Both the position numbers and the translations under genes were made by a program. Positions 41,945 through 62,698 of a stretch of DNA of 64,000 nt are shown here, in pieces. The notes beneath the pieces were generated by a model, which saw only the letters and a list, made by a program, of their open reading frames with translations, was not told where the DNA came from and made no database searches. The stretch's first letter is position 1. Every line of letters starts with the position of its first letter. The DNA comes from a bacterium (GTDB taxonomy: Bacteria; SZUA-79; Acidulodesulfobacterales; Acidulodesulfobacteraceae): contig JAJYDX010000004.1 in assembly GCA_021777135.1 (NCBI GenBank), positions 62,001-126,000 of the forward strand, given 5' to 3'.

Positions 41945-43402
41945 ATGGATATGGATAAAACCGCAAATACGAATAAGCAGAATTCTTTAGAAACAAAAGA
42001 AAGGCTTAAAATTAAAAAACACGAGATGCAGTCGCAGTCTCCAGACGAAAGAAGGAGTAACTTCAAGGAAGTGCCTTACGGCTACTCTCCTGAAGACGCG
42101 GTAGAGGAGGCTAAAAGATGCATACAATGCAAAAGACCTTACTGCATAGAAGGCTGTCCGGTCAATATCGATATTCCGGCTTTTATAAAGCTTATTGAAG
42201 AAGGCGATTTTTTAGGAGCGGCAAAAAAAATTAAAGAAACTAATGCTTTGCCTGCTGTTTGCGGCAGGGTATGCCCGCAAGAAGACCAGTGTGAAAAGGT
42301 TTGCACAATAGGCAAAAGAAAAGACACTCCTTCAGTAGCAATAGGAAACTTAGAAAGATTTGCGGCGGATTACGAGTCTAAATACGGAGACATCAGAATT
42401 GAAGTCAATAAAAGAAAAGACAAGAAAGTGGCAATAGTTGGTGGCGGACCGGCAGGTTTGACTGTGGCAGGAGATTTATGCAAAATGGGTTATTCCGTTT
42501 CCATATTTGAGGCCCTTCACGAAATAGGCGGAGTTTTAATGTACGGAATCCCCGAATTCCGTCTTCCTAAAGAGATTTTATCCAGAGAATTAAAAGTTCT
42601 TGAAGATATGGGAGTAGGAATATTCACTAACGAAGTTATCGGAAAGACAATAACCGTCGACGAATTATTAACAGAAAGGGGTTATAGCGCTGTTTTTATA
42701 GGAACCGGCGCTGGAACGCCTAAATTTCTTAATATACCCGGAGAGGAGCTTAACGGCGTTTATTCGGCAAATGAATTTTTGACGCGTGTTAATTTAATGC
42801 GGGCATACAATAAATCTGAATTTGATACCCCTATTAAATGCGGTAAAACATTAGTTGTTTTCGGAGCAGGCAATACAGCTATGGATGCCGTAAGAACAGG
42901 TTTAAGGCTTGGTTATGACGATGCCAAGATTTTTTACAGAAGGTCTAGGAAGGAAATGACCGCGAGGCTCGAAGAAGTTCATCATGCCGAAGAAGAAGGG
43001 ATTAAATTTGAATTTTTAATAAACCCGCTCCGATTTATAGGAGATGAAAATCATAACGTTACCGCAGTTGAATGCGAACGCATGGAACTTGGCGAACCAG
43101 ATGAAAGCGGCAGAAGGAGACCAATTCCGATAAAAGGTTCGGAGTTTATTTCAGATATTAATGCCGCTGTTATAGCCATAGGAACAAATGTTAATCCTAT
43201 TGTTCCTTCTTCTACTCCCGGAATGAATTTGAATAAATGGGGCTATATAATTGCTGATGAAGACACCGGTAAAACAACAAAAAAAGGCGTTTTTGCCGGA
43301 GGCGATATAGTAACGGGAGCGGCTACCGTAATACTGGCTATGGGAGCAGGGAAAAAAGCTGCAGTCGCGATAGATAAATATATAGAAACCGGTATTTGGT
43401 AA
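41945..43402 (+). CDS. NADPH-dependent flavoprotein, GltD / NfnB / SudA-type large subunit
   Basis: The 485-residue protein has an N-terminal cysteine-rich ferredoxin-like region (CIQCKRPYCIEGCPV and CGRVCPQEDQCEKVCTIG) and two dinucleotide-binding motifs (VAIVGGGPAGL and VVFGAGNTAMD). This is the architecture of NADPH-dependent glutamate synthase small subunit, NfnB and SudA. Paired with the preceding gene, an NfnAB-type transhydrogenase is most likely. The absence of a glutamate synthase large subunit nearby argues against GltD proper. Two ATG codons (41945 and 41951) could be the start. Confidence 0.88.
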   Translation: MDMDKTANTNKQNSLETKERLKIKKHEMQSQSPDERRSNFKEVPYGYSPEDAVEEAKRCIQCKRPYCIEGCPVNIDIPAFIKLIEEGDFLGAAKKIKETNALPAVCGRVCPQEDQCEKVCTIGKRKDTPSVAIGNLERFAADYESKYGDIRIEVNKRKDKKVAIVGGGPAGLTVAGDLCKMGYSVSIFEALHEIGGVLMYGIPEFRLPKEILSRELKVLEDMGVGIFTNEVIGKTITVDELLTERGYSAVFIGTGAGTPKFLNIPGEELNGVYSANEFLTRVNLMRAYNKSEFDTPIKCGKTLVVFGAGNTAMDAVRTGLRLGYDDAKIFYRRSRKEMTARLEEVHHAEEEGIKFEFLINPLRFIGDENHNVTAVECERMELGEPDESGRRRPIPIKGSEFISDINAAVIAIGTNVNPIVPSSTPGMNLNKWGYIIADEDTGKTTKKGVFAGGDIVTGAATVILAMGAGKKAAVAIDKYIETGIW

Positions 43403-43759: not shown

Positions 43760-44746
43760 ATGCGTTCATTTCGTTTGTTTAAAATGCTGGCATTAGGCCT
43801 GGCATTAATGTTTGTTTTAACTGCTTCTATGTCCCAAGACTCTTTTGCTCTTGGCATTAAAGGTATTTATCCGCCATGGTGCAGGAACGGGAACCCGTCA
43901 GTCAATCAAGGTTACCATTTTAGCCCTATGACCGTAGATAACAACCCCGATTTTCACGGAAACATTACTGCTGTTACTTTGCATCCTAAGTCAAGCTTGG
44001 TAGTATTTATCGGAGGCAATATATTTTTTGTGCTGCCTCACGTCGTAAAAGCATTTATGAAAAAATATCCAAACGTAAAGCATGTATTTTATATAACTAT
44101 TCCTCCCGGAATGTTGGTAAGAGTTTGGAAACATAATAACACGGTTACTTTAGGAAACATGACTATGCATTTTTCTCCGGATATATATATGGCTGGAGCA
44201 AAAAAACTTCATTTTACCAATAAGATAGGAATGACTACAGGAAAAATTGTTACTTACGGAAAGAATGACTTAGCCATAATGACTTATAAAGGAAACCCTT
44301 ATCATATTACCGGTTTAAAAAGCCTCGGCAATCCAAAATTAAAATTATCTATGCCGAATCCCGCATTTGAAGGAATTGCACATCAGATTAAAGCTTCTCT
44401 CGTTAAAGCAGGCGGAAAGAAATTAGAGCAGTCTGTTTATAACTACGGAGTAAAAAACGGAAGGGTTTATTTGACGCATATACATCACCGCCAGACTCCT
44501 ATGAGGATTATGCAGAAGAAATCAGATGCCGGCGTTACATGGCAGTCTGAAGCTAAATTTCAGGAAATGATTGGAAACCCCATTACAGAAATAAATATTC
44601 CTGCTAATGAAAACACAGTCGCGTTATACGGTGGAGCTATGGTCAAAGGCGCTCCTAACGCTAAAGCAGCTCAGGAATGGCTCAGCTTCTTAAAATCCAA
44701 AGAATGTTTAAAAATATTCGAACGTTTTGGATTTACCGCTCCTTGA
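43760..44746 (+). CDS. Secreted ModA-like substrate-binding protein, orphan
   Basis: The 328-residue protein has a signal peptide (about 1-29, with SFALG near the cut) and the overall features of class II periplasmic binding proteins of the molybdate/sulfate type: SSLVVFIGGNIFFVLPHVVKAFMKKYP near 75-100, DLAIMTYKGNP, DAGVTWQSEAKF, and the closing GGAMVKGAPNAKAAQEWLSFLKSKE. No permease or ATPase accompanies it. It contains several histidines (HIHHRQ near 245). It is the first gene of a module with DoxDA and a DsrE-like protein, so the ligand may be a sulfur oxyanion such as thiosulfate; this is inference. Confidence 0.8.
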   Translation: MRSFRLFKMLALGLALMFVLTASMSQDSFALGIKGIYPPWCRNGNPSVNQGYHFSPMTVDNNPDFHGNITAVTLHPKSSLVVFIGGNIFFVLPHVVKAFMKKYPNVKHVFYITIPPGMLVRVWKHNNTVTLGNMTMHFSPDIYMAGAKKLHFTNKIGMTTGKIVTYGKNDLAIMTYKGNPYHITGLKSLGNPKLKLSMPNPAFEGIAHQIKASLVKAGGKKLEQSVYNYGVKNGRVYLTHIHHRQTPMRIMQKKSDAGVTWQSEAKFQEMIGNPITEINIPANENTVALYGGAMVKGAPNAKAAQEWLSFLKSKECLKIFERFGFTAP

Positions 44747-44771
44747 TTATAAATAATTTATAATAAATTCC

Positions 44772-44808
44772 ATCAGGCTGTACCTCTTAGGTATAGCCTG
44801 ATTCTTTA
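44772..44808 (+). terminator. Hairpin terminator/attenuator between the binding protein and doxDA
   Basis: ATCAGGCT at 44772-44779 pairs with AGCCTGAT at 44795-44802, continuing through G-T and TACCT/AGGTA to a CTT loop, a stem of 14 pairs, followed by TCTTTAATT. It lies between two co-directional genes, so it would lower transcription of doxDA relative to the binding protein. No clear promoter was found between it and doxDA. Confidence 0.75.
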
Positions 44809-44851
44809 ATTAAATCATAATTTAATTATAACAAGGGGGAGTAATAAAATT

Positions 44852-45904
44852 ATGTCGAAGAGTATAAATGAAATCGAAGACAACGCGGTATACCGTTATC
44901 TTGGATATGCTGCGATTCCGTTAAGATTGGTTTTGGGTTGGATGTTTTTTTCGGCTGCATGGAGGAGAGTTGTTCTTGCAAGCGGAAAGCTTCAGCCTAA
45001 TTCGCCTTTATGGGTAGGGCACAAGTTTAACACTTTTTTACCTCATGCGAGTAATTTCATGGGGGTAGGAAATTTAATCCATCTCTTAATACTGCACCCG
45101 CAGGCATTGGCAGTGTTCCTTAACGTTTTTACAGTAATAGAATTCCTTGTAGGATTATCGTTAATATTTGGTTTGTTTTCAAGGCTAGGCGGTTTAGGAT
45201 CGGTTGCCTTAGCTTTCGGTATCCTATTTGGTTCAGGATGGCTCGGCGCTACTTGTCTTGATGAATGGCAGGTAGGTTCAGTAGAGATGACCATAGGTTT
45301 GCTGATACTTTTTGCAGGAAGCACATGGTCTTTAGACGACGTTGTCAGAAACATATGGCCTAAAGCAGCAGATTCTTTTATCTATAGACTTATAGGTAAC
45401 GGTCCGTTGTGGGGAAAAGGATTCAAGGCATGGAACGCCGTATTCGCTATTTTTGCTATTTTGGTTACCATGGGAACCAACCAGATGTTTCAAGGAGGCG
45501 TCTGGGGAAAGCTTCATAATTTCGGAAAAAAATTAGCCGTATCGGTTTCTGCAGCTAAAATTGCCAATAAAAGTTTGAAATTCACCGTTTACAGGACCGG
45601 AGGCAGTGGAGCCGCATTTGCATATATAATTAAAGCTCAGATTAACGACTCTGCCGGAAAACCGGTTTATGTTTGGAGTCAAAATGCTATAGAAAAATTA
45701 CCTCAATCTGCGATACATAACAGATATGTTAACAGAGCTTTTATAAATAAATACAGCATGGTAATGCAGCTTGGAGCCAAAGCCGACATCAGCCTGCCAA
45801 TTGCCAAAAAGGCATTAAAATCTTTAAAACCGGGCAATTATAAAATTGTGCTTTCTGATGTTAGCGGAGCAATATTTTCGGAAAATTTTTCATATAAAGG
45901 TTAA
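44852..45904 (+). CDS. doxDA: DoxD-DoxA fusion, thiosulfate:quinone oxidoreductase-like
   Basis: DoxDA oxidises thiosulfate to tetrathionate and passes electrons to quinone. The 350-residue protein starts with an N-terminal DoxD region of about four membrane segments (about 15-180; PLRLVLGWMFFSAAWRR, LVGLSLIFGLFSRLGGLG, CLDEWQVGSVEM). A further membrane segment at about 195-215 is followed by a DoxA-like periplasmic domain (about 220-350) ending in LKPGNYKIVLSDVSG. The fused arrangement is known from acidophilic sulfur oxidisers. The start has a GGGGGAG ribosome-binding site. Quinone and thiosulfate specificity is inferred from the family. Confidence 0.87.
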   Translation: MSKSINEIEDNAVYRYLGYAAIPLRLVLGWMFFSAAWRRVVLASGKLQPNSPLWVGHKFNTFLPHASNFMGVGNLIHLLILHPQALAVFLNVFTVIEFLVGLSLIFGLFSRLGGLGSVALAFGILFGSGWLGATCLDEWQVGSVEMTIGLLILFAGSTWSLDDVVRNIWPKAADSFIYRLIGNGPLWGKGFKAWNAVFAIFAILVTMGTNQMFQGGVWGKLHNFGKKLAVSVSAAKIANKSLKFTVYRTGGSGAAFAYIIKAQINDSAGKPVYVWSQNAIEKLPQSAIHNRYVNRAFINKYSMVMQLGAKADISLPIAKKALKSLKPGNYKIVLSDVSGAIFSENFSYKG

Positions 45905-45934
45905 GTAAAAATTAATTTAAAAGGAGAAGAGAAA

Positions 45935-46507
45935 ATGAAGAACAAAAGAATTAAAACCTTTCTGAGCATCTTTGTTTTAGTATTTTCGGCTATTGTTTTT
46001 TCTGTAACTTCCAATGCCTTTGCAGGCTGGAGAGGAACTGCCCCTACGGTGCATCCGGTAGGCTGGTATGGTTGGCACAATGTTAAAGGTGTTAGAGAGT
46101 ATTATCCAAATTTATCTACCGCGCCGAAATATACTATGGGTGCTCCTTATGTTCCAGGAAAGATGTATCATGCGATTTATGTAATAAGCGCAAACAATAA
46201 AATTAAAATGAATAAGATTATAGACAATATTCATAATGCTTTAAACGATCCAAGACTTAAAGGTCACATTAAAATAGAGCTTCAGGCATTCAGTGCCGGA
46301 ACGCACCTTTATTTTAAAGGAAACGGACGTGAAAAAGCATTACTGCAATTAAAAAAATTGGGAGTAGAACTGGTTCAATGCGCGAATAGCTTATATGAGC
46401 TTCATATTCCAGTTTCAAAACTGTATCCTTTTATAAAAATAGTTCCGTCTGCGCAGGGCGAGATTATTTTGAGGGAATCTGAAGGATATGCTTACTTGAA
46501 ACCCTGA
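45935..46507 (+). CDS. Secreted DsrE-like sulfur-carrier-type protein
   Basis: The 190-residue protein has a signal peptide (about 1-30, ending NAFA). An N-terminal extension of unknown role (about 31-75) precedes a DsrE/DsrF-like fold: AIYVISANNKIKMNKIIDNI, IKIELQAFSAGTHL, KLGVELVQCANSLYEL and the C-terminal ESEGYAYLKP. The conserved cysteine C149 in the QCANSL segment is at the position of the sulfur-binding cysteine in DsrE relatives. It is probably periplasmic. With DoxDA and the binding protein it may pick up or hand on sulfane sulfur. A strong terminator follows. Confidence 0.82.
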   Translation: MKNKRIKTFLSIFVLVFSAIVFSVTSNAFAGWRGTAPTVHPVGWYGWHNVKGVREYYPNLSTAPKYTMGAPYVPGKMYHAIYVISANNKIKMNKIIDNIHNALNDPRLKGHIKIELQAFSAGTHLYFKGNGREKALLQLKKLGVELVQCANSLYELHIPVSKLYPFIKIVPSAQGEIILRESEGYAYLKP

Positions 46508-46625: not shown

Positions 46626-46635
46626 ATATACCAAT

Positions 46636-47670
46636 ATGAATACAATACAGGAAATTATAAATGAGATAGATAAGATTTTAGAAGATGCGGGAAATCTTCT
46701 AAAATCTTCTGAAAATGTAAATGAATTGGAAAGCCGGTTCCGTAATTTTACCGGTAAAAAAAGCAAGCTGAACGAAGTATTGCATAACATTCATTCATAT
46801 TCATCAGAAGAAAAGAAAATAATAGGGTCTAAGTCTAATGAAGTTAAAAATCTCATAGGTAATATTTATGATGCTAAAAAAAAGGAACTTTCAAATGTAG
46901 AGCATGAGAAGCTTTTAACTGGATGCCCCATAGATTTAACCATACCCGGCAAAAATATTGAAAAGCAACACAAACATCCAATAATAGCAGTTTTGGAAGA
47001 AGCCGTTGATTTTTTTTCGTCAATGGGCTTCGAGATGGTAGAAGGTCCAGAAATAGAAACTACGCATTATAATTTTGACGCACTAAATATACCTGCCGAA
47101 CATCCGGCAAGAGACGTATGGGATACTTTTTACCTTCTTAACGGGTTTGTCCCGAGAACCCATACTTCGAGCGTTCAGGCAAGAACTCTTGAGAAAAAAG
47201 AACTTCCTTTCAGAATAATTGCTCCGGGAAGATGTTACAGATACGAAGCTGTTGATGCTACGCATCTTTTTATGTTTAACCAAATGGAAGGGCTTTTTGT
47301 CGATAAAAATGTCAGGTTAACGGATTTAAAAGGAATCTTGGAAGAAACCGTAAAGAATCTTTTAGGAGCAAGAAAAACGCGTTTTAGGCCGGCTTTTTAT
47401 CCATTCGTCGAACCTGGTTTAGACTTGGATATCGAATGCGTTTTTTGCGGAGGCAGAGGTTGCGGAATCTGTAAAAATACAGGATGGATAGAAGTCATAC
47501 CATGCGGAATGGTTCACCCTAATGTTTTTAAATATGCCGGAATAGACCCAAATGAATATAGGGGATTTGCCTTTGGAATGGGATTCGATAGAATTGTTAT
47601 GCTGAAATATAATATTAACGACCTAAGGATTTTATATCAGGGAAACCTAGATATATTAGGACAGTTCTAA
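46636..47670 (+). CDS. pheS: Phenylalanine-tRNA ligase alpha subunit
   Basis: PheS is the catalytic subunit that charges tRNA-Phe. The ATG at 46636 gives 344 residues starting MNTIQEIINEID; an in-frame TTG 27 codons earlier is not supported. Motif 1 and 2 regions are visible: THYNFDALNIPAEHPARD, RTHTSSVQAR, IAPGRCYRYE, then DATHLFMFNQMEGL, and motif 3 FAFGMGFDRIVML. A cysteine pattern VFCGGRGCGIC near 280 is typical of a subgroup with a metal-like site. The pheT gene is not adjacent: a 3.7-kb block lies between them. Confidence 0.97.
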   Translation: MNTIQEIINEIDKILEDAGNLLKSSENVNELESRFRNFTGKKSKLNEVLHNIHSYSSEEKKIIGSKSNEVKNLIGNIYDAKKKELSNVEHEKLLTGCPIDLTIPGKNIEKQHKHPIIAVLEEAVDFFSSMGFEMVEGPEIETTHYNFDALNIPAEHPARDVWDTFYLLNGFVPRTHTSSVQARTLEKKELPFRIIAPGRCYRYEAVDATHLFMFNQMEGLFVDKNVRLTDLKGILEETVKNLLGARKTRFRPAFYPFVEPGLDLDIECVFCGGRGCGICKNTGWIEVIPCGMVHPNVFKYAGIDPNEYRGFAFGMGFDRIVMLKYNINDLRILYQGNLDILGQF

Positions 47671-47707: not shown

Positions 47708-49768
47708 TCAATATGTTAGAAATTCAGATATTTTACCTGAATAAGTAATAAAAACTTTTTCTTTAGCTCTTGAAACCGCAACATAAAACAGTTTAATTTC
47801 ATCGTCCATTTCGGTATGCAATTCAATCCTTTCGTTTAAAAATTGAACAAAAGGATGCTTATGTCTTTTCTGCCGGCTTATAATATCCGGTATGCTTTTT
47901 AAATTTGGAATGTTACCGCTTGATGCGTTTGCTATAAATATAATATCGAATTCCATGCCCTTGCTCTTGTGTATAGTTCCTATGTAGCTAACCTCGTTTG
48001 CATATGCGGCAGTTTTAAAACGTATTTCTTCTTTTTGAGTCCTTACGAGTATTGCCGCAGTTTTTCCTTCATTGATAAATCTGCCGGCTGTTTTTATAAT
48101 AAATTGTTCCTCCGATTTTTTATTTTTTAATTGTATAATATTGATAATATAAGAACTGCATTTTTCATTTCCGACCTTTTCCGACGTTAATTTTTTAGAA
48201 TATCTAAAGCCGATTTTATCGATTATTGAATTACAAAATTCGATAATCTTATAATGCGACCTGTAATTATTTTGCATAACAAATATTTTTCCCGAAGGAT
48301 AAAACAAATCAAAAAATAATATATTAAAAGAATCGCCGCCGTTAAATCCGTATATAGCTTGATCGTCGTCGCCTGAATACATAACCGCTCCTCTTGCCGA
48401 ATCAATTTTTTTGATAATGTAATCACTGTAAAAATCCAGATCCTGATATTCGTCTATGAGTATGTATTTAAACCTTGACGCTATATTTAGAAGAATGTCG
48501 TTATTTTTTAAAAGTTCAATAACTTTCATAATAATTTCGTCATAAGATATGTAGTCTTTATTTGATTTATCAAGAATTTCGTTATTATTATCCTTAATTA
48601 AAGGAGGGTATTTAAACCCTAATTCCATATAAAATTCTTTTATAATAGAATAAAAGAAGCTATGATATGTTGAGATATTTAAAATCTTATCTGCGTTGAA
48701 ATTGCCGTAAATCCCACTAACGGGCAATGACGACGCGATTCTGTTCCTTATTTCATCTGCAGCGTTATTTGTAAACGTTAAAATTACTATAGAGTCCGAA
48801 GAAATAAAATTCAAAAGGTATAAGAATTTATTTACGATGATTCTGGTTTTACCTGATCCGGCCCCTGCTATAACCAGATTGGGAAAAAATATTTCTTTCT
48901 TGGACATATCCTGAATTTGGCTTATATCGCGCATTTTTATATTGTTTACATTTTTATTTATTTTAATTCCTTTACGTCTGCAATAAAAAGGTTCGCGAGC
49001 GTTTGCCGCAGCGCCAAGAAATATTTTTATTTTATCTATTAATTCATCCTTATGGAAATAAATATCAGTTAAATTTGTGTTTACAATAATACCTTTTTTT
49101 CCAATAAATTCACCGTTTAAATCATATATCCCGTTAAGGCTGGCGATATTTAATTTAATTTTAAGTTTTTTATCGTTCGAAAAAAGTATATACGGCTTAT
49201 CGTAATTTTGATTAAATCCTAAAACATTATGAAACCCCAGAATACTAATTTTATTAATAACCTTATACATTGAAGAGGTGTATCCTTCGCATTTGATATC
49301 TTTAATTATTCTTGTTTCAGTTAAAAGAATTAAATGTGATTTATAAATATCTAAAATTAAGTGTTCCGGAGAATTTAAGCCGTAATTTAAATATGAAAAA
49401 AAAATATCGTGCACGTTAAAATCACTTTCTGTTTTTATGCAGAGAATAACAGCGTTATTTAAGACGAAATCGCAAATAGCATTAAATAAAGCCGCATCCC
49501 ATAGGCAATCGATTTTTACGTCTTCAAGGATAACCAGCTTTGAACAAAAAAGCTTATTAATATTTTTAAAGGGAAAATTCAGCGGTGAAATTATTTTGCC
49601 TTTAAAATCAAAATTTGTTTTTAAAAATTTAAACGAATAGAGTTTATAATCTAATTTAAATTCTTCTATTTTTTTTATAAAATTTTCTTTTTCTAATGCT
49701 GAAGAAATTAAAACTCCGATTGAGCAGGATAGATTAAAATTGAAATTTTTAAAATAAAGATTTATCAT
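47708..49768 (-). CDS. Compact UvrD-like SF1 helicase with an unrecognised N-terminal domain
   Basis: The 686-residue protein has a helicase core at about 290-686. Motif I AGAGSGKT is at 301-308, Q-type motifs precede it, motif Ia is near TFTNNAADEI, motif II LIDEYQDLD near 437-445, GDDDQAIYGFNGGD at 466-479, NYRSH at 501-505, TIHKSKGMEFD near 598-607 and VAVSRAKE near 666. The first 290 residues match nothing I recognise. The distance from motif IV to motif V is about 95 residues, far shorter than in UvrD, so domain 2B is missing or tiny. It starts 23 bases from the divergent phosphoribosyltransferase. Confidence 0.88.
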   Translation of the reverse strand: MINLYFKNFNFNLSCSIGVLISSALEKENFIKKIEEFKLDYKLYSFKFLKTNFDFKGKIISPLNFPFKNINKLFCSKLVILEDVKIDCLWDAALFNAICDFVLNNAVILCIKTESDFNVHDIFFSYLNYGLNSPEHLILDIYKSHLILLTETRIIKDIKCEGYTSSMYKVINKISILGFHNVLGFNQNYDKPYILFSNDKKLKIKLNIASLNGIYDLNGEFIGKKGIIVNTNLTDIYFHKDELIDKIKIFLGAAANAREPFYCRRKGIKINKNVNNIKMRDISQIQDMSKKEIFFPNLVIAGAGSGKTRIIVNKFLYLLNFISSDSIVILTFTNNAADEIRNRIASSLPVSGIYGNFNADKILNISTYHSFFYSIIKEFYMELGFKYPPLIKDNNNEILDKSNKDYISYDEIIMKVIELLKNNDILLNIASRFKYILIDEYQDLDFYSDYIIKKIDSARGAVMYSGDDDQAIYGFNGGDSFNILFFDLFYPSGKIFVMQNNYRSHYKIIEFCNSIIDKIGFRYSKKLTSEKVGNEKCSSYIINIIQLKNKKSEEQFIIKTAGRFINEGKTAAILVRTQKEEIRFKTAAYANEVSYIGTIHKSKGMEFDIIFIANASSGNIPNLKSIPDIISRQKRHKHPFVQFLNERIELHTEMDDEIKLFYVAVSRAKEKVFITYSGKISEFLTY

Positions 49769-49791
49769 ATTATAGATTAAATTATTTTAAG

Positions 49792-50379
49792 ATGAATAAA
49801 AAATACTATAATATTCATGCTGATAAAAACGGTGAATATTTTTATCTTAACGACTATATACCGAAAAATAAAAAGATACCGTTTGATTACGAAGTCCATA
49901 AACATTCGGAGCGGATATTAAAATATAAAAAAGGCGACCCCCGGATGATAGCTTTTTTCGTTAAAATTTTAAATAACATTATATATAATTATTTTTATTT
50001 TTACGATTTGATTCTGCCAGTTCCTCCAAGTAATTCATATCTAGACGTTTATCCAAACGCGATTGCGTGTTCGTATATTTCGTCGGTTGGGACGATGGAT
50101 ACTTTTGAAGGAGCAATCATATGCAGCAAGGGGCATAAGCCGGGACACATAGAAAATTTCGTATCGAAAAAAATTGATTTAAAAAATATCTTTGTTGTGA
50201 ATAAATATGATTTCGAACATAAAAACATAATTATTCTGGACGATATTATTACGACCGGAAATACATTTTCATATATTAAAAAAGCTTTGTTAAAAAGAGG
50301 CGCAAATTCTGTTGCGGGTTTATTTCTAGGCAAAACATATTCATCCGGCGGTATTATAGAAGAGGATTTTAATGGATGA
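49792..50379 (+). CDS. ComF-like phosphoribosyltransferase without the zinc finger
   Basis: The 195-residue protein has the PRPP-binding signature NIIILDDIITTGNTFSYI at about 145-161, with preceding DLILPVPPSNSY. This identifies a type I phosphoribosyltransferase fold related to ComF and adenine/hypoxanthine enzymes. The N-terminal CxxC zinc-finger of ComF is missing, and N-terminal residues are DYEVHKHSERILKYKKGD. It overlaps dprA by 8 bases, so the two are almost certainly made together. The substrate is unknown. A nucleotide salvage enzyme is a less likely alternative given the neighbour. Confidence 0.82.
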   Translation: MNKKYYNIHADKNGEYFYLNDYIPKNKKIPFDYEVHKHSERILKYKKGDPRMIAFFVKILNNIIYNYFYFYDLILPVPPSNSYLDVYPNAIACSYISSVGTMDTFEGAIICSKGHKPGHIENFVSKKIDLKNIFVVNKYDFEHKNIIILDDIITTGNTFSYIKKALLKRGANSVAGLFLGKTYSSGGIIEEDFNG

Positions 50380-51364
50380 TTTAATATGCACTCTTGCGTT
50401 AAAGAAGATAAAAGGGCTTCAGAACCGTCATATATTTTATTTATTGGACGCGTTTAAAAATCCTTGCGAAATTTTTAGCGCTGATAAGGTAGATTTTATA
50501 AAAGCCGGCTTAAAAACCGAATACATAAATATTCTAACTAATTCAAGAATCATAAGGACTGCATTTTTCGACGCTATTAAAGAAATTGAAGAGGCTTCAA
50601 AAAACGGAATTAAAATTATAACCTTTAATTCCTCTTTTTATCCTTCTAATCTCAGGAAGATAAAAGCTAAGCCTCCTATTTTATATTATAAAGGTATACT
50701 AAAGGAAAATTTAAGACTTGCTGTCGCGGTCGCGGGGCAGAGGAAGCCGCCGGATTACGCGCTTGAACTTGCAGCCAATATTACCGAAGCGCTTTGTTCG
50801 TTCGGTTATTCTATAATAAGCGGATTAGCTCTGGGGATAGATGCCGCCGCCCACAAAGCTGCTTTAAAGAACAACGGCTACACTGTCGCATATATAGGCT
50901 CTGGTCTTCTGTCTCCGGTATATCCTCCAGAGAACAGGGATCTTTATAACGAAATTATATTAAACGGGGGAGCCATAGTTTCGGAATTACCCCTGTATGA
51001 AAAAATATCTTCTAAAAATTTAGTCGCCAGAGACAGATTGCAAAGCGGTTCCGGAATTGGGACGTTTGCCTTGTCTTCGCAGTTAAAAAGCGGAACGATG
51101 AAAACATGTAATTTTTCTTTAAAACAAAAAAGACCGGTTTTTATTCCGGAGTATAATTTGGGACTTATGAATTCTTATGATAATCTTGGTTTAAAATCTC
51201 TTTTAGGTTGCTCCGGGGTTTTCGGTTTAAAATTAAAAAAAGATTTTTCTTTCGATATAAACGATGCTTTAGAAGAGATGACCTCGGCATATAATAAAAT
51301 ATACACCGAAAAGTCTGCCGAAGATGATATATCTGCCCAATTATGCTTGTTTGACTTTATTTAA
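50372..51364 (+). CDS. dprA: DprA/Smf-like protein, variant type
   Basis: DprA loads RecA on incoming single-stranded DNA during transformation; its SLOG-type Rossmann fold also occurs in conflict systems. The 330-residue protein has the N-terminal helical region, SSFYPSNLRKIKAKPPILYYKG (residues 87-108), AGQRKPPDYALE, ISGLALGIDAAAH at 149-161 and YPPENRDLYNEI. Where usual DprA has a FPxRNRIIAGLS segment and SG(A/S)LITA, this one has VARDRLQSG and SGTMKT (240-245). The C-terminal winged-helix domain is missing. The protein ends QLCLFDFI, in which QLCLF resembles the beta-clamp-binding motif. pheT follows 32 bases later. Confidence 0.85.
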   Translation: MDDLICTLALKKIKGLQNRHIFYLLDAFKNPCEIFSADKVDFIKAGLKTEYINILTNSRIIRTAFFDAIKEIEEASKNGIKIITFNSSFYPSNLRKIKAKPPILYYKGILKENLRLAVAVAGQRKPPDYALELAANITEALCSFGYSIISGLALGIDAAAHKAALKNNGYTVAYIGSGLLSPVYPPENRDLYNEIILNGGAIVSELPLYEKISSKNLVARDRLQSGSGIGTFALSSQLKSGTMKTCNFSLKQKRPVFIPEYNLGLMNSYDNLGLKSLLGCSGVFGLKLKKDFSFDINDALEEMTSAYNKIYTEKSAEDDISAQLCLFDFI

Positions 51365-51396: not shown

Positions 51397-53862
51397 TTGA
51401 AGGTTAGTTTAAACTGGCTTAAAGAGTTTTTAAATTTTAATACTGATGCCGAAAAGATAGCAAATCTCTTGAACGGCAGAACTATGGAAGTGGAAAAAAT
51501 TTTTCCGTATTATTCGCAAAAAAAATCATTTGAAAATATAGTAGTTGGCGAAATTAAAAGCATAAGCGAACATCCGACGAGCGATAAATTCGGCATTGCT
51601 GAAGTTTACGGCGGTGAAACTATAGGAATTAAAAGAATAGTTTTTACAAAAGAAGGACTTGATATAAAAGTCGGAGAGAAACCTTTAATCGCTACTAAAG
51701 GAACTGTTTTTGAACACGGTTTAAAAATAAGAGATAAAGCAATATTCGGCATAGTTTCGGAGGCTGCTTTCTGTTCAGAAAAAGATCTGGGCTTGCAATT
51801 AAACACATCTTCTATTGTGAAGTTTCCTTTTGAAAAGACAGGAAGTACTGCTTACGATATTTTTGAATTAAACGACGTCGTTTTAGAATTTGACCTTGAG
51901 CCTAACAGGCCGGACCTATTTGGCATACTGGGGTTTGTTTACGAGTTGTCCGCTATATTAGACAAGGATATGATTCTGCCAGAACTTTACGGCGGCATAG
52001 AATTGAAATCTTACGGTAATTATTCTTCCAAGGAAACTGAGCTGGTTGTTAATGTAGAAGATAATGACTTAATCCCGGCTTATACGGCAGTTAAAATTTC
52101 CGGAATAAAAATAAAAGAATCCCCTATGGATATAAAAAACAAATTGCTTAAATGCGGGATAAGGCCGATTAATAATATAGTTGATTTGACAAATATCGTT
52201 ATGCTTGAAACAGCCCAGCCGTTGCACGCATTCGATGCAGAAAAATTAAGCGGCAATAAGATAGATGCTAGGCGCGCTAAAGAAGGGGAATCGGTTATTT
52301 CTCTGGACGGCAAAGAAAGGAAACTGTCGAATGAAGATATCGTTATAGCCGATAAAGATAAGATTATTGCAATAGCTGGAATTATGGGCGGAGAAAATAG
52401 TGAAATCGATGAAGGCACCGTTAATATTATAGTAGAATCCGCTAATTTTAATATGTCTAGCATTAGAAAAACATCAAGAAAGCTGTCTTTAAGGACAGAT
52501 GCTTCGACCCGCTACGAAAAAGGTCTTCACCCTTCCCTAAGCGTCTCTGCTATAAAACGTTTTTTATATCTACTCAATAAATATTATGATGGTTTAAATG
52601 TTTCCTGTTATGCCTATGATATAAAAGAATTCGATAGTCCCAAAAATTATAAAATCAAATTAAATGATTTATCGAGTTTTCTTGGCGATATGGCGGTAGA
52701 AAATAAAGCCCGCCGTTTTCTATCCCGCCTTGGCTATGAAATTATGGAGAATAAATCCGGAGAAACGGCGCCTGAAGAAATAATTACCGTTATACCGCCT
52801 TACTTTAGGAGCGATATAAGCGAGAATGTTAATATTTACGAGGATGTATTTAGAATTTACGGTTACGATAATATTAAATCTACGGTTCCATTAGGTTTTT
52901 TAATACCGCCGCAAAAAAATTCAAACTTCGAAACCTCAAGACTTTTCAGGAATTTGTTAAGACACAACGGATTTACCGAAGTTATTTCAGCTTCCCTTAC
53001 CGGAGAAAAAGAGATAAGCATATCGGTTTCCGACGATCAAGCCGTTAAAAATAAGATATTAAATAACAAAGATTATGTTCTTGAGCTTAAAAATCCTATA
53101 TCTAGAGACTTTGCTTTTTTTAGGATAAGTATAATACCTGATATATTAAAATCGGTGTCGCAAAATTCTAAAAAATATAAAAGCATTAAAATATTCGAAA
53201 TCGGAAAGATATACACAGGAGAAGAATCGGAGGGTTATCCGGTTGCCGAAAAAAATATTTTATGCGGAAGCCTTTGCTCCGGTATTAAGCACACGAGCCG
53301 TGACGACGAGTTTTACGGAGGGAAAGGCTTAATTGAATTTCTATTAAAAGAATCCGGCATTAAAAAATTTACATTTAATAAATTAGATGCCGGTACTTTC
53401 TATAATGAAAATGCTGCATTAGAAATTTCTATAGGCAAAAAAAGAGCCGGTATATTTGGAGAAATAAAGAAAGAAATACTCGACGAGTTCAAGATAGAAT
53501 ATAAGGTTTTCTCATTCGAGATAGATATAGATTTCATAAAAGATTTTATTTCAAATAAAAAAACTTTTATACAGCTAAATAAATATCCAGAAATAGAACA
53601 GGATATTTCCATAGTTGCAGATTGCGCAATAGAATACTCTGCCATAGAAAAATTTATAAAGGGTTTTTCAGGATTAATTAAAAATGTCAGGTTGGCGGAC
53701 GTTTACAAGGGAAAGCAGATTGAGGAGGGGAAGATATCCTTTCTCATAAGATACGATGCTATGGCTGACGACAGAACGCTGACTATGGAAGAAGTTAATT
53801 TATTGAGAGACGGCATCTTAAAAGAATTAAATGCCCGCTTCGGAATTACCCTGAGAAGTTAA
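51397..53862 (+). CDS. pheT: Phenylalanine-tRNA ligase beta subunit
   Basis: PheT completes the heterotetrameric synthetase and edits mischarged tyrosine. The TTG start has the ribosome-binding site GGGAGGA; the 821-residue protein begins KVSLNWLKEFLNF, as in the family. Visible regions are the EMAP-like tRNA-binding domain (about 40-150), the B5 domain, the B3/B4 editing region with LFGILGFVYELSA and NNIVDLTNIVM, the synthetase-like core, and the ferredoxin-fold anticodon-binding domain at the C-terminus (LNKYPEIEQDISIV). Length is normal. Confidence 0.96.
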   Translation: MKVSLNWLKEFLNFNTDAEKIANLLNGRTMEVEKIFPYYSQKKSFENIVVGEIKSISEHPTSDKFGIAEVYGGETIGIKRIVFTKEGLDIKVGEKPLIATKGTVFEHGLKIRDKAIFGIVSEAAFCSEKDLGLQLNTSSIVKFPFEKTGSTAYDIFELNDVVLEFDLEPNRPDLFGILGFVYELSAILDKDMILPELYGGIELKSYGNYSSKETELVVNVEDNDLIPAYTAVKISGIKIKESPMDIKNKLLKCGIRPINNIVDLTNIVMLETAQPLHAFDAEKLSGNKIDARRAKEGESVISLDGKERKLSNEDIVIADKDKIIAIAGIMGGENSEIDEGTVNIIVESANFNMSSIRKTSRKLSLRTDASTRYEKGLHPSLSVSAIKRFLYLLNKYYDGLNVSCYAYDIKEFDSPKNYKIKLNDLSSFLGDMAVENKARRFLSRLGYEIMENKSGETAPEEIITVIPPYFRSDISENVNIYEDVFRIYGYDNIKSTVPLGFLIPPQKNSNFETSRLFRNLLRHNGFTEVISASLTGEKEISISVSDDQAVKNKILNNKDYVLELKNPISRDFAFFRISIIPDILKSVSQNSKKYKSIKIFEIGKIYTGEESEGYPVAEKNILCGSLCSGIKHTSRDDEFYGGKGLIEFLLKESGIKKFTFNKLDAGTFYNENAALEISIGKKRAGIFGEIKKEILDEFKIEYKVFSFEIDIDFIKDFISNKKTFIQLNKYPEIEQDISIVADCAIEYSAIEKFIKGFSGLIKNVRLADVYKGKQIEEGKISFLIRYDAMADDRTLTMEEVNLLRDGILKELNARFGITLRS

Positions 53863-61900: not shown

Positions 61901-62698
61901 ATGTTAAGTAAGCATAAAAAACCGCTTCAACCTTTAAAAGACGCATTAACGTCCAACGATATCTATAAAAACAGTATGACTAAGGGCGTTTTTCTTTTGC
62001 CTAATCTAATAACCAGCCTTTCGCTTTTATCGGGGTTTTATTCAATTATTAACTCTATAGAAGGAAAATACTGGATTGCCGGTTGGTTAATAATAGCTTC
62101 TATTTTTTTTGACGGCATAGACGGAAAAGTAGCGAGGCTTACAAATACAAGTTCTAAATTCGGCATAGAATATGATTCTCTTTCTGACCTTATCGCATTC
62201 GGCGCTGCTCCGTCGGTATTATCGTTTAAATGGTTTCTCATAGGTTACGGCAGGGCGGGATGGGCGGCGGTGTTCGTTTATCTGCTTGGAGCGGCTCTTA
62301 GGCTTGCAAGATTTAACGTTCAGCGGAATTCGGTAGAGTACAATAAATTTATGGGACTTCCCTCTCCTGCCGCAGCCGGTACGGTAGTCTCATTTCTTTT
62401 TATTATGACTGAATTTTCTTTAGAATCCGCAATGATAGGCAAAATTATGCTTGTCCTAATAATTATTACAGGTCTTTTGATGGTTAGCAACATAGGGTAT
62501 TTTGCTATGAAAGATTTTAGCATTTTTAAGCGCAGGGCGTTTGAATCCCTTGTCCTGCTTTTATTGGTTTTGATTATAATCGTAATCAAGCCGGTGGAAT
62601 CCCTTTTCACGATTTTCTTCCTTTATTCTTTCGTATCGCCGCTATTGTATTTTTATCTTGTTAGTGTTAAGATAAAAAATAATAAAGAAATTGAATAA
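61901..62698 (+). CDS. pssA: CDP-diacylglycerol-serine O-phosphatidyltransferase
   Basis: PssA makes phosphatidylserine, the substrate of Psd. The 265-residue membrane protein has the CDP-alcohol phosphotransferase signature: D71-G, D74-G, A78-R79, G88, D92 and D96. It has about eight hydrophobic segments. It lies directly between psd and leuA; the pair psd-pssA supplies phosphatidylethanolamine to the membrane. Confidence 0.95.

Follow-up and report, generated by a model that had tools for sequence, protein, structure and literature searches.

A Phosphoribosyltransferase–DprA Gene Pair and a Divergent UvrD-like Helicase between pheS and pheT in the Bacterial Phylum SZUA-79

The gene pair and its setting

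The DNA considered in this study is a stretch of 64,000 nucleotides (the window; positions 62,001 to 126,000 of contig JAJYDX010000004.1) from a genome of the bacterial phylum SZUA-79, assembled as 2.12 Mb in 92 contigs. Within it, the genes for the two subunits of phenylalanyl-tRNA synthetase, pheS and pheT, are separated by a block of three genes, encoding a UvrD-like helicase, a phosphoribosyltransferase (PRT), and a relative of DprA. An earlier note on the window had proposed that the three proteins share a function. I find that the PRT and the variant DprA are very probably a functional pair, whereas the case for the helicase as a working part is weak. There is about an even chance that the locus has as its core a PRT–DprA module of two translationally coupled genes, kin to the RqlHI/PsyrTA and ShosTA pairs and inherited vertically as a single-copy part of the core genome. 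On the best reading, the pair is a domesticated relative of those systems and would act in genome integrity.

Known PRT–DprA pairs are toxin–antitoxin or defence modules of patchy occurrence, whereas here the pair contains the only DprA of the genome and is vertically fixed in a phylum that lacks ComEC. The retention of DprA in non-competent bacteria is an open question, and this lineage offers a natural setting for studying what roles PRT–DprA pairs may have beyond DNA uptake and conflict with mobile elements.

The gene order, the gap, and the overlap given by the earlier note agree exactly with the coordinates of the open reading frames (ORFs). The left boundary is pheS, the alpha subunit (46633..47670, plus strand; TIGR00468, 307 bits, above the cut-off), whose start is placed at the ATG at 46633, where the family alignments begin. 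Convergent with it lies the gene of a UvrD/Rep-like helicase of superfamily 1A (SF1A), 686 amino acids in length (47708..49768, minus strand; Pfam UvrD-helicase, 5.9e-42). A gap of 23 bp (49769..49791) separates this from the divergent PRT gene (49792..50379, plus strand; 195 amino acids; Pfam PF00156, 3e-5), which shares its last 8 bp (50372..50379) with the gene of the DprA-like protein, called dprA here (50372..51364, plus strand; 330 amino acids; PF02481, 8e-49). The right boundary is pheT, the beta subunit (51397..53862, plus strand; TIGR00472, 609 bits, above the cut-off), starting with TTG 32 bp past dprA. An overlap of 8 bp recurs in many relatives, from genera g1 and g5, and translational coupling of PRT and dprA is likely from it. 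As had been supposed, pheS and pheT are usually adjacent elsewhere: they are so, read by eye, in a clear majority of 31 outgroup genomes, though not in all. Shared control of the helicase and PRT genes, which had been suggested by their close divergent spacing, gains no support: among relatives the gap is anywhere between 12 and 313 bp long, and a scan for a divergent promoter gave matches near chance (27 against 20.9 expected).

Distribution and inheritance

The sample of the phylum consists of 30 genomes from one family and six genera. PRT and dprA occur together in all 28 genomes that have the contig; the only genome in which both are missing (G013, 65% complete) also lacks matches to the helicase, pheS, and pheT. 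The helicase adjoins the pair in nearly all. Contig breaks leave some parts unseen, the contigs of G007 and G009 beginning inside the block and those of G001 and G010 stopping inside pheT or dprA. In tblastn maps of 28 loci, gene order and strands are identical, with G018 (genus g4) as the sole exception. Since the arrangement recurs in independent genomes across the phylum, it is neither chance nor an assembly artefact, and in this the linkage of the three genes reported by the earlier note is borne out. In one genome (G017, locus L037, 239-2657) pheT is split over three reading frames, the cause being errors of assembly or else a break in this essential gene.

The three genes are all under purifying selection. 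Pairwise ratios of nonsynonymous to synonymous substitution (dN/dS) are 0.05-0.21 for dprA, 0.07-0.28 for PRT, and 0.12-0.28 for the helicase, as compared to 0.04-0.12 for pheS. Between genomes, the distances of the three genes follow those of pheS and pheT (correlations of 0.87-0.99). The PRT–dprA block is thus a vertically inherited core, fixed in the phylum, and not the mobile cassette once envisaged. The order of the genes 3' of pheT (rseP, tsaB, and further genes) is as conserved as that of the block; therefore the synteny of the block reflects vertical inheritance and is no proof of joint function, an argument for which it had been considered and which is weakened accordingly.

The nucleotide composition of the block might have suggested recent horizontal import, since the helicase (GC 0.286) and PRT (0.310) genes are AT-rich and dprA (0.365) is not. 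Import is ruled out because the same contrast among the three genes is found in every helicase-bearing relative and codon use in the block is ordinary; the distances, moreover, follow the species tree.

To the left of pheS, between it and a conserved gene (41945-43402) with the neighbouring tRNA-Leu, lies a cluster (43760-46507) that encodes a substrate-binding-like protein, a DoxD/DoxX-like protein, and a small protein. Genus g2 and some members of g1 have it and others lack it, and the place beside tRNA-Leu is a variable insertion site.

The phosphoribosyltransferase

The PRT scores below the cut-offs of both the Pfam family (23.8 vs 26.3) and comF (45 vs 233). Its motif for binding phosphoribosyl pyrophosphate (PRPP), IILDDIITTGNT (50230..50265, plus strand), is intact and present in 19/19 family PRTs; the counterpart in ComFC of Helicobacter pylori is DDIITTGTTL (PMC9005727). 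None of the same 19 has a CxxC that would belong to the four-cysteine zinc finger found at the N-terminus of ComFC. When an AlphaFold model of the PRT was compared by Foldseek with the PDB, the first three ranks were taken by structures of ShosT (8zvb, 8zvd, and 8zvc, in that order), with template-modelling scores, normalized to the query, of 0.56-0.61. HGPRT comes after these, and ComF of H. pylori follows at rank 10. A search for relatives of the PRT in viral contigs found none.

The DprA-like protein

The DprA-like protein, the single genomic match, exceeds the Pfam cut-off (166 bits) and falls short of that for TIGR00732 dprA (155.8 vs 191), and the description of it as a variant DprA was correct. 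The canonical pattern, (F)P.RNRIISGLS...SG[AS]LITA..ALEQGREVFAVPG, is replaced in the family by NLVARDRLQSG...SGTMKTC..KQKRPVF; that is, the protein has neither FPxRNRIISG nor the canonical SG[AS]LITA stretch. The signature RDRLQSG lies at 51029..51049 (plus strand). ShosA of known structure (9vzo) has RNRIQAA. The more general motif R[DN]R[ILV]Q is carried by 12/12 family rows; beyond the family, seven DprA-like proteins have it, all from plasmids. Four of these seven (L059, L061, L062, and L144) have a neighbour that is recognizably a PRT at the level of Pfam, two (L058 and L060) have as neighbour a HAD protein that the family PRT profile matches weakly, and the last (L147) has no PRT neighbour. 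A scan of 386 genomes with the DNA pattern for RDR[IL]Q[SA]G gave ten matches, none within DprA, and is uninformative, since the pattern missed known members of the family in the sample.

In a broader comparison, 80 loci from named genomes were gathered with the DprA profile and their neighbours scanned with the family PRT profile. It matched a neighbour of DprA in two of the 80: L071, where the neighbour is a RecQ–PRT protein of the RqlHI type, and L096, where it is a HAD–PRT protein. Both DprA-like proteins have non-canonical motifs. In maximum-likelihood trees, the family lies outside the canonical DprA clade (support 98/98; SH-aLRT 97 in a quick tree) and among rows with PRT partners, its sister group not being settled by the trees.

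Three of the loci encountered are worth describing for their own sake. On the Escherichia coli plasmid pLAO18 (L058, 3827-8789), the DprA-like gene is followed by one for a giant protein combining HAD, a DUF559 nuclease-like part, and a RecQ-type helicase, a relative of the RqlH type. The DprA-like and HAD–PRT pair of L096 (93-2557) is on a contig binned as a Methanophagales archaeon. Within 4 kb of the NT-25 plasmid (L061, 3959-7731), a DprA-like gene lies on either strand, and beside each is an ORF that is of PRT type or matches the PRT profile.

The helicase

The helicase matches only generic UvrD/Rep families (Pfam UvrD, 145 bits) and falls far below the cut-off of every named helicase in NCBIfam. 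SF1A motifs I, Ia, II, III, IV, V, and VI are all kept in the alignment of 26 orthologues, including motif I (Walker A), AGAGSGKT at 48845..48868 (minus strand). The best Foldseek match of an AlphaFold model of modest confidence (pLDDT, the predicted local distance difference test, 70) is to UvrD/PcrA/Rep. The N-terminal domain (48931..49768, minus strand), about 280 amino acids and predicted to be alpha/beta, is peculiar: residues 1-280 match no Pfam family, and a profile of the domain found only the orthologues at this locus, in 27/386 genomes, none outside the phylum. In viral contigs, matches to the helicase were confined to the generic UvrD core. The helicases of genus g2 (L036, L041, L043, L045, and L047-L049) have some 60-80 additional amino acids, motifs IV and V being separated by an insertion.

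G018 has no helicase, and its genes pheS, PRT, dprA, and pheT are consecutive on one strand. In all probability the ancestor had the helicase, which was then lost cleanly in G018, because a tree of pheS plus pheT, rooted with other phyla, nests G018 within the family (support 99/97). An approximately unbiased (AU) test likewise rejects a tree with G018 outside the rest of the family (p=0.024, a value to be read with caution in view of the long outgroup branches). The opposite history, a late gain of the helicase with G018 ancestral, is hinted at by the DprA tree alone and is countered by the rooted tree and its AU test. The loss in G018 provides the comparison that a knock-out would.

Explanations of the locus

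On the preferred reading of the pair, the PRT would use PRPP in forming or eliminating a nucleotide-type product, one that may be harmful or serve as a signal if the enzyme is unrestrained, and the DprA-like Rossmann protein would bind both DNA and its PRT partner and so hold the latter in check. The pair would respond to abnormal or single-stranded DNA arising from damage, stalled replication, or invaders, and the divergent helicase, as an optional accessory, may supply or clear such DNA. PRT and dprA stayed together when G018 lost the helicase, which supports the pair, as do the neighbours of DprA that the family PRT profile picked out in the RqlH-type and HAD–PRT loci. This reading draws as well on the overlap of the two genes, the purifying selection on both, the position of the DprA beyond the canonical clade and the motif it shares with ShosA and with DprA-like proteins of PRT- or HAD-partnered loci, the ShosT structures that head the PDB matches of the PRT, and the missing ComEC.

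There is a good deal to set against this. The covariation in rate of PRT and DprA, once the species-tree component is removed, is 0.65, no higher than that of neighbouring null pairs. No RecQ part is fused to the PRT, unlike the case of RqlH. A search for a HAD domain in the block gave no match, and the PRT has 195 amino acids compared to 432 in ShosT, of which the PRT part comprises residues 280-372. It is to these residues that the PRT is matched by profile search, and only weakly (E 0.011), and the model behind the structural comparison is of moderate confidence (pLDDT 79). A tree that joins the family to the canonical DprA clade, to the exclusion of the PRT-partnered rows, is not rejected by the AU test (p=0.44). 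Nor can the matches to the PADLOC models of ShosA and ShosT serve as proof of defence: the ShosA model PDLC03961 gives 201 bits with the DprA-like protein of the window, and the match is non-specific because the control, Smf of E. coli K-12, scores 195. (The model, used alone, would call ordinary DprA as well.) Finally, defence and toxin–antitoxin modules are usually patchy, and universal fixation resembles housekeeping.

The last point leads to an explanation that I consider possible, though I would not bet on it: a housekeeping set for recombination or repair, in which single-stranded DNA would be loaded with RecA by DprA and handled by a ComF-like PRT, a relic of transformation after the loss of ComEC and with no tie to toxin–antitoxin systems. 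The block is universal, vertical, single-copy, and strongly conserved, as such a set should be, and in two species ComFC has been found to interact with DprA and to bind single-stranded DNA (PMC9005727). Canonical DprA, found in nearly all outgroup genomes, is missing from this one; therefore the family DprA may take its place. However, this DprA differs from the canonical type, the PRT lacks the zinc finger of ComFC and has a fold nearer to ShosT than to ComF, and ComEC is absent throughout the sample. The layout holds throughout the lineage, a circumstance that the earlier note would have held against a cassette had a housekeeping role been known to go with it; no known housekeeping role explains the layout.

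What part the helicase plays can be judged separately. It could equally well be, or not be, an unrelated neighbour kept in place by conserved gene order, with PRT and dprA alone forming a unit or all three genes independent, and the first of these is compatible with the explanation preferred for the pair. Besides its clean loss in G018, its position on the opposite strand, and the equal synteny of rseP, tsaB, and further genes, the rates argue this way: the partial correlation of helicase and PRT (0.27) is lower than the null values for helicase with rseP (0.57) and tsaB (0.53), so that co-evolution of the helicase with PRT and DprA, lacking a signal above null neighbours, was rejected. Against mere neighbourhood stand the N-terminal domain that exists at this locus only and the recurrence of helicase, PRT, and DprA in other architectures, RecQ–PRT with DprA (L071) and HAD–DUF559–RecQ with DprA (L058). 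The helicase is accordingly a possible, unproven third part of the PRT–DprA module, and a dispensable one. A bolder and distinctly tentative proposal would make all three a genome-surveillance module, with an SF1 helicase bearing a phylum-specific N-terminal domain, a free-standing PRT, and an RDRLQ-type DprA. Such a module would add a third architecture to those of RqlHI and ShosTA and be a domesticated core set replacing canonical DprA throughout the phylum.

The earlier note had in mind a unit of competence or defence. A role in competence is excluded, because ComEC (PF03772) was found in 0/30 genomes of the phylum and the PRT lacks the ComFC zinc finger. The same search was positive in 10/14 control and 11/12 outgroup genomes, and every naturally transformable bacterium has ComEC and requires it (PMC9005727). 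DprA, ComF-like PRT, and helicase are all competence-type names, to be sure, but on gene content the idea is refuted and would survive, with a vanishingly small chance, if uptake went through a non-homologous channel. Defence fares somewhat better. Kinship with PRT–DprA pairs of defence and toxin–antitoxin systems is supported by fold and motif, and the phylogeny is compatible with it; relatives occur on plasmids and phages; and PRTs and DprA-like proteins are part of proven defence systems, including ShosTA (PMC9122126). Even so, a dedicated anti-phage system of the ShosTA type is improbable, given the lack of mobility, the lack of a defence-island context among the genes examined, a database match that is non-specific, and fixation across the phylum. 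Because of that fixation, a core role in genome integrity is favoured over a mobile role in defence.

Comparison with known systems

Set beside competence genes, the block has the logic of the ComFC–DprA set (with ComFA in Gram-positives), PRT plus DprA plus helicase, and the PRT shares the DDIITTG motif. It differs in occurring in a phylum without ComEC and in having a PRT with no zinc finger, a non-canonical DprA, and a helicase that is an SF1A protein of the UvrD/Rep type. With canonical DprA/Smf the DprA-like protein shares the Rossmann DNA_processg_A domain and its single copy per genome; motifs, score, and place in the tree set it apart.

ShosT is a phosphoribosyltransferase plus pyrophosphatase that upsets purine metabolism and ShosA a DNA-binding antitoxin, according to Pu et al. 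(2025) as reported in PMC12593503. The likeness to ShosTA lies in the PRT fold, the DprA-like partner with its RxR[IL]Q motif, and the PRT–DprA operon. Here, however, the HAD domain that ShosT-clade loci carry is absent, a helicase is added, identity is about 15%, and the block is vertically fixed.

RqlH, a fusion of RecQ and PRT in E. coli F11, has a PRT domain that is genotoxic unless restrained by the DprA-like RqlI (PMC4670107), and the link of PRT, helicase, and DprA has also been pointed out in PMC5512222. Like RqlHI/PsyrTA, the locus combines a helicase, a PRT with an intact PRPP motif, and a DprA-like protein whose gene is overlapped, here by 8 bp, by that of the PRT; such an adjoining partner is present in all genomes of the phylum with the contig. 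In RqlHI/PsyrTA the helicase is RecQ-like, of superfamily 2, and the systems are strain-specific. Here it is UvrD-like SF1A, has an N-terminal domain seen only at this locus, and has a gene of its own, which runs on the opposite strand; the PRT is free-standing; and the block belongs to the chromosomal core of the phylum. Because it has neither the RecQ fusion nor a HAD part, the locus belongs to neither RqlHI nor ShosTA. Most plausibly it works as they do, with a PRT that would be toxic, a DprA-like partner that would bind and antagonize it, and a trigger in abnormal DNA.

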